DNA of 64,000 bases from Anaerolineaceae bacterium (GTDB lineage Bacteria; Chloroflexota; Anaerolineae; Anaerolineales; Anaerolineaceae), in NCBI GenBank assembly GCA_016841445.1, contig JAENZD010000001.1, positions 186,001-250,000 on the forward strand. Direction: 5' to 3'. Of the stretch, positions 13,810-19,805 are shown in pieces. The position numbers and the translations under genes were made by a program. The stretch's first letter is position 1. Every line of letters begins with the position of its first letter. The notes under the pieces were generated by a model that saw only the letters and a program-made list of their open reading frames with translations, had not been told where the DNA came from and made no database searches.

Positions 13810-14490
13810 TTATAAGTCGGTTCCGTGATAACCGGTGACCAGTGTAACCTTATTATTATTGTTAAGCTTTTTGATATCACTGACAAATCGATCCACAAGG
13901 CCAGCTTTACGCATCCCGATGCTGTAAGTCAGCTCGGTGAGTGTTCCGCTCTGGACTGAATCGACCGCGATCAGTTCTGCAGCGGTTGTGTATTTTAAGA
14001 ACAAGTTTTCAAAAAGATCAGTAAATTTGGCGTCACCAGGGACCTGGATCCTGAGGATCTGGTTTGCCATCTTCCGGGAGAACCAATCGAAGCGGGTCAT
14101 CAACAGGATCATCAAGCTGATCACAATCGTCCCAACGACTGCCAGGGTATAAAATTGGGTACCCACTGCCATCCCTATCGCCATCGTGAAGAAGATGAAC
14201 CCAACGTCACGAGTCTCTTTGACCGCGTTCCGGAAACGGATGATCGAAAGCGCGCCCACCAGAGAAAAGGCACGGGCGATGCTGGACCCAACGATCATCA
14301 TGACCAATGCAACCACCATCCCATTCAGCACAAGCGTGAAAACAAAGCTTTGGGTGTAGGATGAACCGCGGTGGGTGGTCTTATAAATCCAACCAATGAA
14401 AGCGGTAAGCGCGAAACTGAGCACAAATACCAGCACGACATCGATGACGGTGAATTCTGACGACAAGTCCTGAAAATTTAGAAAGTCCAT
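13810..14490 (-). CDS. DUF4956 membrane protein
   Basis: The 226-residue protein has about four membrane helices in its first 140 residues and a soluble C-terminal domain of about 85 residues. The segment ARAFSLVGALSIIRFRNAVKETRDVGFIF is the hallmark of DUF4956, a family found beside VTC-type polyphosphate polymerases and CotH proteins in bacteria. It lies 23 nt downstream of the VTC-domain gene on the same strand, so the two form an operon. Its role is unknown; a part in polyphosphate synthesis or in membrane placement of the polymerase is inferred. No CotH gene is adjacent. Confidence 0.82.
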   Translation of the reverse strand: MDFLNFQDLSSEFTVIDVVLVFVLSFALTAFIGWIYKTTHRGSSYTQSFVFTLVLNGMVVALVMMIVGSSIARAFSLVGALSIIRFRNAVKETRDVGFIFFTMAIGMAVGTQFYTLAVVGTIVISLMILLMTRFDWFSRKMANQILRIQVPGDAKFTDLFENLFLKYTTAAELIAVDSVQSGTLTELTYSIGMRKAGLVDRFVSDIKKLNNNNKVTLVTGYHGTDL

Positions 14491-14513: not shown

Positions 14514-15359
14514 CTAATTATTTTTTTCTGCATGTTGTAAACTATTCCAGAAGACTGGAACAGAATAAGCGGATGACAAAACCTCCTGCGAAGGTTCAGA
14601 TATGAGATTTCGAGATTGCATACCGGGAAGATCCCATGCCGCCTCGATGCTGCAGCAGTATTTGCTGATCCGGTATAACTGCAGGTTTTTTGCAGCGATC
14701 ATTTCAGTCAACCAGTTTGGTATCCGTTCATTGACCTTGATCTCCATTACGACTTTATCAGCAGGAATGAACGGAAGGGTAGTGCGTTTTTCATGGAGAT
14801 GCAGCGGGGCAACCTGGAAAGAAAGGTCAGTATCAAATGTGACCCGCAGGCCGGGATCATAGACTGTGCCGGTAAACGCTTGCCGCTGGTATCTGATGAT
14901 GTTTGCAGGAACCAGGTTGTATTGCCACAGGTAGACAAAAATTTCCTTGATGGCATCCCGATCCACCGGGTCGTGGTTTGGAATCTGGCGGTCGCTGCAT
15001 AAGTGAAGTGCATCCCGATAGGCCAGCACAGACCTTCTTTTTTGGGTCACCCGGTCCACGCGCTGCTTGATTTCCACGAAAACGGGTGTTTCATCTGTCA
15101 GGGTTGCACCTGTTTCGTAGTGTCGTATACGCAGTTTTCGGCGATATTTGATCCCGTTTTCTTTTTCCCAGTAACAGCGGAAATTGGGCGAATCGTAGTA
15201 AAGGTTCGCGATGGTATAGCACCCATCCTGGTTGCCATAGGTATCTGGCGTCATATAGCGCTGCAGGACCTTTTTGAATTCTTCTGCTTGCTTCAGGTCA
15301 ATCATGTATTTGAGTTCGAAGCGGTTGAAGTTTCGCATGGTTTTGTAAAAATGATTCAT
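14514..15359 (-). CDS. VTC-domain polyphosphate polymerase-like protein
   Basis: The 281-residue protein is a VTC domain, the tunnel-shaped catalytic fold of yeast Vtc4, which makes polyphosphate from ATP. Visible family features are FNRFELKYMI near the N-terminus, the basic strand RRKLRIRHYE, the EIKQRVDRVTQKRR segment (lysines and arginines lining the tunnel) and VVMEIKVNERIPNWL near the end, which holds the metal-binding glutamate. It is cytoplasmic and probably works with the downstream DUF4956 membrane protein. With the Pho-like two-component system and Na/Pi cotransporter that follow, it suggests phosphate storage, though the genes are divergently transcribed. Confidence 0.85.
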   Translation of the reverse strand: MNHFYKTMRNFNRFELKYMIDLKQAEEFKKVLQRYMTPDTYGNQDGCYTIANLYYDSPNFRCYWEKENGIKYRRKLRIRHYETGATLTDETPVFVEIKQRVDRVTQKRRSVLAYRDALHLCSDRQIPNHDPVDRDAIKEIFVYLWQYNLVPANIIRYQRQAFTGTVYDPGLRVTFDTDLSFQVAPLHLHEKRTTLPFIPADKVVMEIKVNERIPNWLTEMIAAKNLQLYRISKYCCSIEAAWDLPGMQSRNLISEPSQEVLSSAYSVPVFWNSLQHAEKNN

Positions 15360-15829
15360 GGTGCACCTTTACGTTCTTTTGCTTAGTTCTGACTATATTA
15401 TTTACAAAGTAAGCCAATTGTTCTGGCGATGATTGGATGTACTAAATTTTAGATTTTAATGCTGTGAGCATTCTAAGAAATGCCTGTGAAATTCCTGAGG
15501 ACTGGGAATTTAATTGTTTTGGTATTCTTTGCGAATACAAAATGAGGGCATTATTGACAATGACCTAATTTCAGGAGATTGTTTTGGTCACCTCCTTTCG
15601 TCGAGAAGGTAACGCTGGAGGAGAAGTTATTGACCTGAACTTGGGAAGTGTTGATTTACTATGCATTGTTCAGCCAAAATGTAACTCTACAGACTGAACC
15701 TTTGAAAGTTCTGAGAAAAAGCTGTTAATTTACTGAGAATGAATGCCGCAAAGGGTAACTGGGATTTGGCGTCTGGGCAATCTGAGAAAATCCTGTGGAT
15801 ATATGGGTTATCAGGTTTAAACAATACCA
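15360..15829. other. Long intergenic region between divergent operons
   Basis: About 470 bp separates the VTC gene from the regulator promoter. No supported reading frame is present. At 15786-15797 lies GAAAATCCTGTG, which pairs exactly with CACAGGATTTTC at 15832-15843, part of the Pho-type site upstream of the regulator gene. Confidence 0.5.
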
Positions 15830-15863
15830 TTCACAGGATTTTCACAGTAAAATCGACTATAGT
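15830..15863 (+). promoter_or_regulatory. Pho-type direct repeat and -10 upstream of the two-component system
   Basis: Two identical TTCACAG heptamers stand at 15830-15836 and 15841-15847, an 11-bp period. This fits the TT(A/T/C)ACA-N5-TT(A/T/C)ACA arrangement of Gram-positive PhoP boxes and, read on the other strand, the CTGTnA-type halves of PhoB boxes. A TATAGT hexamer begins exactly 10 bp after the second repeat, the usual place for a -10 activated from such a box. Autoregulation by the downstream response regulator is inferred. Confidence 0.6.
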
Positions 15864-15890: not shown

Positions 15891-16571
15891 GTGGCAACTA
15901 TTTTAATTGTTGATGATGACCCGAAATTATTGAAGATGCTCAAGCGCACATTGACCTATGAGGGGTTGAATGTGAGCACTGCTTTGAATGGTTTGGAGGC
16001 GCTTCCTTTGGTGTCTTCGCAAGCGCCTGATCTTATCGTTTTGGATTGGATGATGCCCAAAATGGACGGTTTGCGGTTTATCCAGCGCTTGCGCGATAAC
16101 CAGAACCAGACCTTGGTTTTAATGCTCACTGCGCGGGATGCGATTGAAAACCGTGTGGAAGGATTGGAAAGTGGCGCGGATGACTACCTGGTCAAACCTT
16201 TTGCACCCTCTGAATTGGTGGCGCGGGTGCATGCCCTTCTGAGGCGCGCTGAAGAAAAACCTGAGAACAATACAGTTGAATACTGTGGCATCTCATTAGA
16301 CCCAAAGACGCGTGAAGTGATCAATGGCGGTGAGCCGGTGTCTTTAACCGTAACCGAATTTGATTTGCTGCATATGTTGCTGCTTCATCCCCGCCAGGTG
16401 CTGGAGCGCCAGCAGATCTTGAATAAGGTTTGGGGCTATGATTTTTATGGGAACGATAATGTCTTGGAGGTCTATATCGGCTACCTGCGGAAAAAACTGG
16501 AAGCGAATGGCCGCCCAAGGCTGATCCGTACGGTACGCGGTGTGGGGTATGTACTGCGGGAGGTCGAATGA
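15891..16571 (+). CDS. OmpR/PhoB-family response regulator
   Basis: The 226-residue protein has a receiver domain with acidic pocket D8-D10, phospho-acceptor D52 (VLDWMMPKMDG), T80 and K102, then a winged-helix DNA-binding domain (LTVTEFDLLHMLLLHPRQVLERQQILNKVWG...VYIGYLRKKL, ending RTVRGVGYVL). It starts with GTG, preceded by AAGGAAG. A Pho-type direct repeat lies just upstream. Its stop overlaps the kinase start by four bases (ATGA). Control of phosphate uptake is inferred from the box and from the Na/Pi cotransporter downstream; by sequence alone it could be any OmpR-type regulator. Confidence 0.92.
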   Translation: MATILIVDDDPKLLKMLKRTLTYEGLNVSTALNGLEALPLVSSQAPDLIVLDWMMPKMDGLRFIQRLRDNQNQTLVLMLTARDAIENRVEGLESGADDYLVKPFAPSELVARVHALLRRAEEKPENNTVEYCGISLDPKTREVINGGEPVSLTVTEFDLLHMLLLHPRQVLERQQILNKVWGYDFYGNDNVLEVYIGYLRKKLEANGRPRLIRTVRGVGYVLREVE

Positions 16572-18013
16572 CGATCCGCCTGCGGTTAACCCTGGTTTAT
16601 AGTGCTATCCTGACGCTGACGTTGGTAGTATTTGGGGTTGCGTTGTACACCATTCAATCACAGGATACGCTGAAATCACTCGAACAAGACCTGGTCGTCA
16701 GCAGCAACAAATTCACAGAATCATTCCTGCGGACAGGATTTGCGATCCTGCCATTTGATAGGGATCAACAAGCACCACCACCCCCCAGGCCGTTTGACCA
16801 GATCACGGACGATCAAGTATTCCAGAACCTGAGGGAAAGAGAAATTGTTCGGATTGTGGATGCAGACGGCAATTTGATCGCCAGCCCATCTGGATTAGCA
16901 GAAGATGCCCTCCCGCTAAGTGAAGAAGCGCTTGATGAATTACAGCAAAATAATGTTATTTTTGAAACCGGGCTGGTTCTTAATGAAAATATGCTCATTT
17001 ACAGCCGGCCTGTTAATATTAACGGTGAATTGACATTTATCATCCAGGTTGCGCGGTCTTTGACAGAACGGAACCGGACACTTCAGTCGCTGGCGACAAC
17101 ACTGTTCATAGCCGGTGCCACAATGGTGCTGTTTGCCTTTGGTGTGGGATGGTTCCTTTCAGGGTTGACTCTTCGCCCCATAGACCGGATCACACAAACG
17201 GCGAAAAGCATTGGTGCAGAACGTGATTTCAGCAAACGGGTCAAACACACCGGCAAGCAAGATGAAGTCGGGCGTCTGGCGAACACCTTCAACCAGATGC
17301 TTGGGCGGCTGCAAGAAGCCTATCAAAAGGTTGAAAGATCCCTTGACCAGCAGCGGAATTTTGTTTCAGATGTTTCCCATGAACTTCGCACGCCCCTGAC
17401 CACACTCCGGGGCAATCTTGGTTTGCTGCGCCACCAACCGCCAGTATCCCAGGATGAGCAAGAAGACATCCTGAAGGATATGGTGGATGAGAGCGAACGT
17501 ATGATCCGGCTGGTGAATGAACTGCTGATGCTGGCGCATGCGGATGCAGGTCGAAGTCTGGCGAAAGAGGCGATTGCCATTAACCCTGTCATTGAGGAGG
17601 TTGTTCGCCAGTCAAAACACCTTGACCCAAACCGCAAGATCATCCTGGCGCTATGTGAAGGCCCAATAATCCAGGGCGACAGAGATGCGCTAAAACAAAT
17701 CGTTTTAATATTGCTGGACAACGCTATTAAATATTCCACAGAAGACGTGCATATCATCTCAGTTTGCCAGGATAAACAGGTCACAATTTCAGTTAAGGAT
17801 AAGGGTCAGGGGATATCTACAGATGAGTTAACGAGAGTTTTTGACCGGTTCTATCGGGGGGAAGAAAACGCTATCATCCAGGGTTTTGGTCTGGGATTGC
17901 CAATTGCAAAATCACTGGTTGAGGCAATGGATGGCACCATTGAAATCGATAGTCAGTTGGGTGTTGGCAGCGTTCTCAGAATTTCCTTCCCAATTTCATT
18001 AGAAAATAACTGA
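16568..18013 (+). CDS. HAMP sensor histidine kinase
   Basis: The 481-residue kinase has an N-terminal membrane helix (about 8-28), an extracytoplasmic sensor of about 140 residues, a second helix (about 175-197), a HAMP domain, an H-box (FVSDVSHELRTPLTTLRGNL) and an HATPase domain with the N-box (LDNAIKYS) and G boxes (DKGQGIS, GFGLGLPIAKSLV). It lacks a cytoplasmic PAS domain, unlike classic PhoR. It overlaps the response-regulator gene by ATGA and is its evident partner. The signal sensed cannot be told from the sequence. Confidence 0.93.
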   Translation: MTIRLRLTLVYSAILTLTLVVFGVALYTIQSQDTLKSLEQDLVVSSNKFTESFLRTGFAILPFDRDQQAPPPPRPFDQITDDQVFQNLREREIVRIVDADGNLIASPSGLAEDALPLSEEALDELQQNNVIFETGLVLNENMLIYSRPVNINGELTFIIQVARSLTERNRTLQSLATTLFIAGATMVLFAFGVGWFLSGLTLRPIDRITQTAKSIGAERDFSKRVKHTGKQDEVGRLANTFNQMLGRLQEAYQKVERSLDQQRNFVSDVSHELRTPLTTLRGNLGLLRHQPPVSQDEQEDILKDMVDESERMIRLVNELLMLAHADAGRSLAKEAIAINPVIEEVVRQSKHLDPNRKIILALCEGPIIQGDRDALKQIVLILLDNAIKYSTEDVHIISVCQDKQVTISVKDKGQGISTDELTRVFDRFYRGEENAIIQGFGLGLPIAKSLVEAMDGTIEIDSQLGVGSVLRISFPISLENN

Positions 18014-18203: not shown

Positions 18204-19805
18204 ATGGTTGGGTTAATTCAAATATTAGGTGGTCTGGCATTATTTTTATTTGGTATCAATTTACTGAGTTCGGGTATTGAAAAATTAGCGGGGGATCAAA
18301 TCCAGGTCTGGCTAGAAAAAGTCACCAATAACCGATTTAAAAGTGCAGTCTTTGGCGCAGTTGCTACAGCGCTTGTGCAAAGTTCCAGCTTGATCATGGT
18401 CACGATGATCGGGTTGATCAATGCCAACCTGATGACCGTCACCCAGGCCATAGGCGTGATGCTAGGGCAGGAAATTGGGACAACCATGACTGCCCAGATC
18501 GTTTCCTTCCATGTCGGTGATTTTCGTTTGATCCTTGTTGTGGTTGGCTTGCTTTTCTATGAGTTTTTCCCCAATCGTGACTGGAAGAAATTTGGTGAAA
18601 TATTCATGGGGTTGGGCGTGATTTTTATTGGTATGGGGTTTATGTCTGGAGCTTTAGACTCCCTTATAACAATTCCCTGGGTAGCTAATTTATTACGACT
18701 CCTTGGCCAAAATATTTGGTTGGGGGTTTTAGCTGGGATTGTATTGACCGCTGTCACTCAGAGCAGTTCGGCAGTGACAAGTTTGGTTGTCGCGATGGGG
18801 ATCAGCAATGTTATCACGCTTCAAGGCGCGATCGGGATCATCCTTGGCGCAAATATTGGCACGTGTGTCACGGGCTTGATTGCCTCGTTACGGTTATCGC
18901 CCACGGCGCGCCAGGCATCGCTTGCTCAAATTGTGATCAATATTGCGGGTGTCCTGCTATTCTTACCCTTCATTGCGCCTTTCGCTGATCTGGTTGAAGG
19001 TACTGCGACCGCACTTGCAAGGCAGATAGCCAACGCCCATTCGATCTTCAATGTTGTTGTGAGTGTTGTCCTGTTCCCGTTTGCCAAACCCATAGCGAAC
19101 CTGGTTAAGAGTATTTCTCCAGCGAAACCCGAAAAAGAAAAGCAAAAGGTCACAGCCTATATTGATGAAAAGCAGTTTGCGGTCCCCTCTGTAGCAATCA
19201 ATGAAGCCGCACGAGAACTCTCCCGGATGGGGGAGATTACTGCAGAGATGGTCGCTTTGTGCTGCCGTGCATTGATCGAGAAAGACTTCGGGCTTGCTGA
19301 ACGCGTTCTGGTAATGGAGGACAGCCAGGTCGATCCTATCACCGATGAGCTGGATGGTTTTTTGATCCGCCTGATGCGATCGGAATTAAGCCTAAAACAA
19401 CAGAAGCGCACTTTTCAGATAAAGAATTTATTGGTCGATATTGAACGCGTCGGGGATATGGCGGAAGATATCGCACAGTTCGCCCAGGAAAGGATCGAAA
19501 AAAATATACCATTCACGGATGAAGCGATCAATGAGCTGGATCGCTTTTGGCACGGTGCCCACCGAAACTATACCATGGCTTTGGAAGCCTTTACGAATAA
19601 AGACCACGAACTGGCTGCCAAAGTGTGCGAGGTCGAAAGCGAATTTGATGTCCTGTATTGGCAAGCCAGGCAGCGGCATATTGAACGGCTTGAAATTGGT
19701 TTATGTAAACCGGGCGCAGATGTGATCTTTTCAGAAACCCTGCGGTTGCTGGAGAGGATCAGCGACCATGCAGATAATATCGGGGTGAGTGTGTCGAGGA
19801 ATTAA
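18204..19805 (+). CDS. Na/Pi cotransporter family protein with PhoU-like domain
   Basis: The 533-residue protein has two inverted transport repeats, each with the QSSS signature of the NptA/PNaS family (LVQSSSLIMVTMIG near residue 53 and VTQSSSAVTSLVVAMG near residue 190). A cytoplasmic PhoU-like helical domain follows from about residue 325 (LLVDIERVGDMAEDIAQFA and LLERISDHADNIG). It probably brings in or exports phosphate with Na+. The 190-bp gap from the kinase gene holds only one TTCACA half-site (18126-18131), so separate transcription is likely. AAAGAGG precedes the ATG. Confidence 0.9.
   Translation: MVGLIQILGGLALFLFGINLLSSGIEKLAGDQIQVWLEKVTNNRFKSAVFGAVATALVQSSSLIMVTMIGLINANLMTVTQAIGVMLGQEIGTTMTAQIVSFHVGDFRLILVVVGLLFYEFFPNRDWKKFGEIFMGLGVIFIGMGFMSGALDSLITIPWVANLLRLLGQNIWLGVLAGIVLTAVTQSSSAVTSLVVAMGISNVITLQGAIGIILGANIGTCVTGLIASLRLSPTARQASLAQIVINIAGVLLFLPFIAPFADLVEGTATALARQIANAHSIFNVVVSVVLFPFAKPIANLVKSISPAKPEKEKQKVTAYIDEKQFAVPSVAINEAARELSRMGEITAEMVALCCRALIEKDFGLAERVLVMEDSQVDPITDELDGFLIRLMRSELSLKQQKRTFQIKNLLVDIERVGDMAEDIAQFAQERIEKNIPFTDEAINELDRFWHGAHRNYTMALEAFTNKDHELAAKVCEVESEFDVLYWQARQRHIERLEIGLCKPGADVIFSETLRLLERISDHADNIGVSVSRN

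Follow-up and report, generated by a model that had tools for sequence, protein, structure and literature searches.

Putative PhoP-like tandem operators at a two-component locus of Anaerolineaceae and their predicted VTC, CotH and Cthe_2159 targets

Putative tandem operators at the response regulator locus

In promoters activated by response regulators of the PhoB/PhoP type, the PHO box sits at a fixed distance from the -10 hexamer, and it is established for that family that the box replaces the -35 element. One review describes PHO boxes as direct repeats of 11 nt, in which seven bases are conserved and four less so, the consensus being CTGTCAT in E. coli and GTTCACC in S. coelicolor, and the Pho regulon includes Pi transporters and extracellular Pi-releasing enzymes (PMC4415409). 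According to another study, PhoP of Mycobacterium tuberculosis recognizes TCACAGC-N4-TCACAGC in the form of a head-to-tail dimer; altering the 4-bp spacer weakens the binding, three or four units are bound more tightly, and the recognition helix of PhoP contacts bases through Asn212, Val213, Glu215, Ser216, Tyr217 and Tyr220 (PMC4832192).

The window, by which we mean the whole 64-kb stretch of DNA analysed (G000:C3:186001-250000, from a genome of 3.35 Mb), contains the gene of an OmpR/PhoB-family response regulator (RR; PF00072, 115.5 bits; PF00486, 102.4 bits) with a sensor histidine kinase gene behind it. Genes for a VTC-domain protein and a DUF4956 protein, the latter presumably a membrane protein by its family, are divergent from the RR gene, and a gene for a Na/Pi symporter with a PhoU domain follows the kinase (Table 1). 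A predicted fold of the kinase sensor was discarded, its mean pLDDT being 38.

We found TTCACAG at 15830-15836 and 15841-15847, 11 bp apart, with a -10 hexamer 10 bp downstream at 15858, just as the earlier note had described, and the PhoB/PhoP-type promoter geometry that it recognized here (7-bp units, 11-bp period, -10 at 10 bp) is also kept in orthologues. The same note read GAAAATCCTGTG at 15786 as a third half-site in inverse orientation; that sequence is present at 15786-15797 and the site is real, but it holds two half-sites (TCCACAG-N4-TTCTCAG) rather than one. This inverse box is possibly a decayed divergent array. Arrays A and B, both stronger than the inverse element, had been overlooked in that first reading of the sequence: each has an 11-bp period and ends exactly 10 bp before its -10-like hexamer. 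The suggested link between the divergent VTC gene and the box region is supported in that VTC is a predicted target, faced by these two four-unit arrays. A small gene between arrays A and B was considered and rejected, as that strand has only ORFs of up to 47 aa and gave no evidence of a gene. The distance from array to VTC is only about 90 to 330 bp in the window; in a genome of the same genus, G010, two trypsin/PDZ (HtrA-like) reading frames separate the array from VTC (L176:6527-7805).

Table 1. Coordinates of the features at the locus (window positions) and of the pst loci elsewhere in the same genome
Feature	Position	Strand	Basis or remark
Two-unit putative operator TTCACAG-N4-TTCACAG, RR promoter (autoregulatory box)	15830..15847	+	sequence; kept in 29/35 orthologues
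-10-like hexamer TATAGT, exactly 10 bp past RR-facing box	15858..15863	+	sequence; orthologue gap scan
Two-unit inverse box TCCACAG-N4-TTCTCAG, without -10	15782..15799	-	pattern scan
Array B, four-unit putative operator (TTCTCAG TTAACAG TTCTCAG TTCAAAG), facing VTC-DUF4956	15700..15739	-	scan score 27, window maximum
-10-like hexamer TAGAGT of array B	15684..15689	-	sequence
Array A, four-unit putative operator (TCCTCAG TTCACAG TTCTTAG CTCACAG), facing VTC-DUF4956	15462..15501	-	scan score 26
-10-like hexamer TAAAAT of array A	15446..15451	-	sequence
Response regulator (RR), OmpR/PhoB family, Response_reg + Trans_reg_C	15891..16571	+	domain profile search
Sensor histidine kinase: ArlS_N-like sensor, HAMP, HisKA, HATPase; no PAS	16568..18013	+	domain profiles
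VTC-domain protein, predicted polyphosphate polymerase, predicted target	14514..15359	-	ORFs and domain profiles
DUF4956 protein, predicted target behind VTC	13810..14490	-	ORFs and domain profiles
Na/Pi symporter with PhoU domain, neighbour 3' of kinase	18204..19805	+	domain profiles
pstS...pstB locus	C3:541-545 kb		pstS, pstB by curated models; two genes between taken as pstC, pstA by position
pstB-phoU locus	C5:17.8-19.5 kb		own RR and kinase beside; whole L186:5839-10074 = G000:C5:17.8-22.1 kb

When the 64 kb were scanned for four units followed by 10 bp and TAnnnT, the three promoters of this locus scored 27, 26 and 23; the next value was 20, found at one site elsewhere and in a shifted frame of the array at 15700-15739. 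The exact pair TTCACAG-N4-TTCACAG has a single match in the window and likewise a single match genome-wide. Lone TTCACAG words show no enrichment in the window (11 vs 8.4 expected), and the pair pattern with up to 3 mismatches has 15 window matches vs 6.0 expected, a number reached in 0 of 100 shuffles.

The arrangement thus has the 7-bp direct repeats, 4-bp spacers and fixed -10 distance of a PHO-box-type tandem operator. It resembles the PHO boxes of PhoB-PhoR and PhoP-PhoR systems in its 11-nt direct repeats and -10 distance, and differs from their Pho regulons in that neither pst locus here has a box, the kinase has no PAS domain and the unit sequence is another one. The closer likeness in sequence is to the M. 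tuberculosis PhoP operator: the box, (T)TCACAG(C), contains TCACAGC units with a 4-bp spacer, so that the 7-bp motif lies within one base of the PhoP register, and PhoP binds up to four units in vitro, where the four-unit arrays of the present locus are known from sequence (PMC4832192, PMC9019756). Aligned to PhoP, the window RR keeps five of the six base-contact residues (Asn212, Val213, Glu215, Tyr217, Tyr220) and has Val for Ser216. All 37 orthologue rows, which include two duplicate loci, share the motif N-V-x-E-x-Y-x-x-Y, and the Ser216 position is Val or Ile. Differences from PhoP are this substitution, the other phylum and the other target genes. Against M. tuberculosis chains the RR scored 206.3 bits with PrrA, 197.4 with PhoP and 159.4 with MtrA, and since PrrA scores slightly above PhoP these values do not establish orthology to PhoP.

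Conservation of the boxes and their co-occurrence with the adjacent regulator

We compiled 35 distinct orthologous loci with upstream DNA from 61 family and 400 order genomes, two sets that overlap partly; L031 equals L265 in sequence and L032 equals L272, and each pair was counted once. The RR-facing box with 10 bp and TAnnnT scored at least 15 of 17 in 29/35 loci (0/700 dinucleotide shuffles), and a divergent four-unit array, searched for in the final 600 bp, scored at least 23 of 31 in 28/35 (0/700 shuffles), the orthologous promoters being non-independent samples. An 11-bp period fits 29 of the 35 loci and periods of 8-10 and 12-14 bp fit none of them; a complete TAnnnT past a good box stands at gap 10 in 29/35, and none of the other gaps between 5 and 15 exceeds 4/35. 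The total score alone is looser on the gap, with up to 22/35 passing at gap 5, because two perfect units already yield 14 of 17. The RR-facing box is absent in six of the 35 loci and the divergent array in seven, both being absent in L273 and L274. The loci L277, L279, L282 and L285 (G081, G139, G147 and G068; genus g48) keep the divergent array before VTC and have no RR-facing box. Sequence logos gave 0.7 to 2.0 bits at unit positions and less than 0.6 bits at most spacer positions, the exceptions in the RR-promoter logos being C after unit 1, T before unit 2 and A directly past unit 2; of 29 RR promoters, 24 have a C directly behind unit 1 and 14 have one directly behind unit 2. In G022, the VTC copy adjoining the RR gene (G022:C5:105909-106337, L229) has an in-frame stop and no DUF4956 match beside it, and the RR promoter box is intact.

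Across 48 genomes, the pattern TTCACAG-N4-TTCWYRG-N4-TTCACAG-N10-TANAAT with up to 3 mismatches gave 48 matches, found in 27 of the 30 genomes that have the RR and in none of the 18 that lack it; it is missing in three RR-positive genomes, and its reversed control had 0 matches in all 48. The RR-positive sample covers 30 of the 47 known, 22 of them from families other than the window's. The 18 RR-negative genomes, mostly complete, were chosen by the analyst from the 61 family genomes and all belong to the window's own family, within which the pattern occurs in 7/8 RR-positive vs 0/18 RR-negative genomes.

Within the genome of the window, the pair pattern with up to 2 mismatches matched 38 times and its reversed control 7 times (30 of those 38 loci looked at), and a degenerate form of the triple with up to 3 mismatches had 31 vs 6 (30 of 31 looked at). 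Because the consensus TTCACAG was taken from this same genome, these counts are not independent of it; those in other genomes are. Among the 30 triples, intergenic arrays with at least three units at 5/7 or better occur only at this locus, at C6:98225 upstream of a CotH-kinase-domain lipoprotein, and at C3:415951-415990 upstream of a Cthe_2159 carbohydrate-binding lipoprotein, both being called lipoproteins by eye from their signal sequences. The array before Cthe_2159 scores 25 and was missed by the three-unit pattern with TANAAT at 3 mismatches. A weaker fourth intergenic triplet (GTCACAG ATCACAG GTCACAC) at C2:288474-288502 (L174:2475-2503) precedes an ABC-transporter ATPase gene, which may be a further, weaker target.

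Alternative readings and a proposed mechanism

The earlier note proposed phosphate control of storage and uptake, that is, a Pho regulon element whose RR is the genome's PhoB/PhoP, senses phosphate and controls both polyphosphate storage (VTC) and Na/Pi uptake. This would accord with the Pho-box geometry of the repeats, the predicted polyphosphate polymerase, the Na/Pi-PhoU gene after the kinase and the finding that, among equivalog models, PhoB scores highest with the RR, if under its cut-off. We nevertheless consider it unlikely, because the pst loci have no box, the RR and kinase score below the PhoB and PhoR cut-offs and no PhoU or Na/Pi targets were found. The RR reaches 231.4 bits with the PhoB equivalog TIGR02154 (cut-off 296.2), and the kinase, without a PAS domain, 169.6 bits with the PhoR model (cut-off 334.2). 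Neither of the genome's own pst loci has an array with a summed score of at least 12, and the 242 bp upstream of pstS contain no 11-bp repeat of any sequence at 6/7 matches. The pstB-phoU locus adjoins a two-component system of its own, whose RR helix, TVDVHVRWLRE, is unlike that of the window RR and, we assume, resembles PhoB's; the top models of its kinase, WalK, PnpS and PhoR, all stay under their cut-offs, and the adjoining PhoU exceeds its own. That system is likelier to be the phosphate two-component system of the genome. We also sought PstS, PstC, PstA, PstB, PhoU and Na/Pi genes behind the 48 boxes and found no PhoU or Na/Pi gene there and no convincing Pst target. PstB-like matches of 34-36% identity in L329 and L336, the former adjoining a MacB-type permease, were taken as other ABC ATPases, and L348 has weak PstC/PstA-like and short PstS-like matches, with a binding protein that by eye looks molybdate-type. 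No Na/Pi-PhoU gene was found after the kinase in the nine orthologous loci with enough downstream DNA, and we list it as a neighbour, making no claim of regulon membership.

Another possibility is that some other regulator of the OmpR family occupies the boxes, such as the pst-linked RR or a 53%-identical paralogue at C6:651291, and related winged-helix regulators can indeed bind similar tandem repeats; the paralogue's helix (NVLDVYIRY) is similar to that of the RR. However, the boxes track the adjacent RR (27/30 vs 0/18 genomes) and follow neither of the other two, since 16 of the 18 box-free, RR-negative genomes have a match to the pst-linked RR and 16 contain a 49-54% identical paralogue. 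In addition, Asp stands at the Glu215 position in 21 of 21 paralogue rows, all from genomes without the RR, and no array was found in the 11-kb region of the genome's own paralogue. In four genomes with boxes the pst-linked RR had no match up to an E of 1e-85; its absence is uncertain in G218, G245 and G279, where some candidates went unscored (58 of 74, 58 of 96 and 58 of 64 scored, respectively), and all 58 were scored in G267. Binding by another regulator is on this evidence very unlikely. The inverted repeat at 15782-15847 might instead form an RNA hairpin, either an attenuator or a terminator, as GAGAAAATCCTGTG and CACAGGATTTTC are able to pair and two Rfam hairpin models gave matches, far under threshold (22.9 vs 48.5 and 22.8 vs 51.5 bits). 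With only these sub-threshold Rfam matches, an RNA element was rejected. Since this repeat precedes the -10 hexamer of the RR promoter, transcription from that promoter would not include it, and what relatives keep is the tandem unit of 11 bp, whereas most bases of the spacers vary; a hairpin in place of a protein site is hence hardly credible.

We regard the region as quite probably a bidirectional control region of a dedicated, self-activating OmpR/PhoB-family two-component regulon for a surface/polyphosphate module. The arrays, their spacing and conservation, their co-occurrence with the RR and the genes behind them are read directly from the genomes; from them we infer that the RR may bind the boxes, would activate rather than repress, and may be dedicated to envelope and polyphosphate genes in response to a signal other than phosphate. 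The kinase encoded at 16568 would phosphorylate the RR encoded at 15891, which would then bind the 7-bp (T)TCACAG(C) units, 11 bp apart, head-to-tail as tandem dimers, a binding mode suggested by the match of the box to the PhoP motif and by the conserved helix contacts. The RR's own promoter would be driven by one dimer on two units and every strong target promoter by two dimers on four units, with the final unit 10 bp before the -10 and the box substituting for the -35 element.

Predicted targets and possible function

We searched for ten gene families within 3 kb downstream and on the same strand of the 48 boxes in 27 genomes, the stretches of L327 and L334 ending at contig ends. VTC, DUF4956, CotH or Cthe_2159 lay behind 25 of the 48 boxes and any of the ten families behind 39, with none of them downstream of the remaining 9. 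The first recognized family was VTC at 15 boxes and DUF4405 at 12, followed by HlyD (3), Cthe_2159 (3), CotH (2), PAP2 (2), MacB (1) and DUF4956 (1). From their position behind the arrays, the predicted targets in the genome of the window are VTC-DUF4956 (with two tandem promoters), the CotH-kinase lipoprotein and the Cthe_2159 lipoprotein, and DUF4405 proteins and HlyD/MacB exporters are further predicted targets in relatives. These genes also occur together: the RR and kinase genes of G007 are divergent from VTC-DUF4956-CotH, JACRBH010000025 (L032) has Cthe_2159 and then VTC-DUF4956, and G279 (L332) has DUF4405, VTC-DUF4956, CotH and Cthe_2159 in a single row with three boxes.

A box common to all VTC, CotH and Cthe_2159 genes was considered and rejected: only 5 of 40 loci in 20 genomes scored at least 24 (the window genome's VTC, CotH and Cthe_2159 and the VTC of G007 and G010), a count that excludes 14 more loci that are secondary stretches of the same genes. 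The array is absent at three of the four VTC genes and three of the four CotH genes of the window's genome, and several Cthe_2159/VTC clusters in other RR-positive genomes have no box. With so many VTC, CotH and Cthe_2159 loci lacking a box, the module is not under box control as a whole. The box-free VTC genes at C3:321832, C3:1717905 and C6:19978 in G000 are paired with CotH genes at C3:323199, C3:1721058 and C6:22178, respectively, and these three pairs are presumably under other control. No VTC, DUF4956, CotH, Cthe_2159 or Na/Pi match was found at 78 loci (L033-L110) of more distant RRs with at most 55% identity.

To our knowledge, no joint function has been described for bacterial VTC, DUF4956, CotH and Cthe_2159 genes. 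Parts of this group recur in two described settings: CotH, polyphosphate polymerase and DUF4956 accessory genes adjoin Pel exopolysaccharide operons in Gram-positive bacteria (PMC7112168), and the NELoc-2 cluster of C. perfringens comprises VTC, CotH and neighbouring genes (PMC2879425). The present locus is like both in grouping CotH with VTC/polyphosphate polymerase, and like the Pel case also in DUF4956; in the excerpts of these two sources considered here no regulator or operator is described for that accessory group, whereas the present locus links such a group to a specific two-component system. The target set most likely points to a role in the envelope or matrix, given these parallels and the presence of Cthe_2159 surface lipoproteins and exporters among the predicted targets. 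A literature search that left most subscription journals outside its range found no paper describing the RR or the box. We lean, with reserve, towards an undescribed, order-wide Chloroflexota two-component regulon with PhoP-like tandem boxes that would co-control VTC, DUF4956, CotH kinase, Cthe_2159, DUF4405 and MacB/HlyD as one Pho-independent envelope module that may use polyphosphate or protein phosphorylation to build or modify a surface structure.

A searchable operator and its regulator would link VTC, DUF4956, CotH and Cthe_2159 with one another as well as with DUF4405 and export genes, and would set this gene set apart from the phosphate-starvation regulon. Together with a gene set expected to be co-regulated, the operator offers a handle for finding the inducing signal. 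The comparison also suggests that a PhoP-type TCACAGC tandem site may serve a different gene set in another phylum. No Pfam family was found for a small box-controlled lipoprotein of G004 (L175:10101-10727), which by eye is resembled by the C-terminal part of the Cthe_2159 lipoprotein of G010 (L176:2496-4811).
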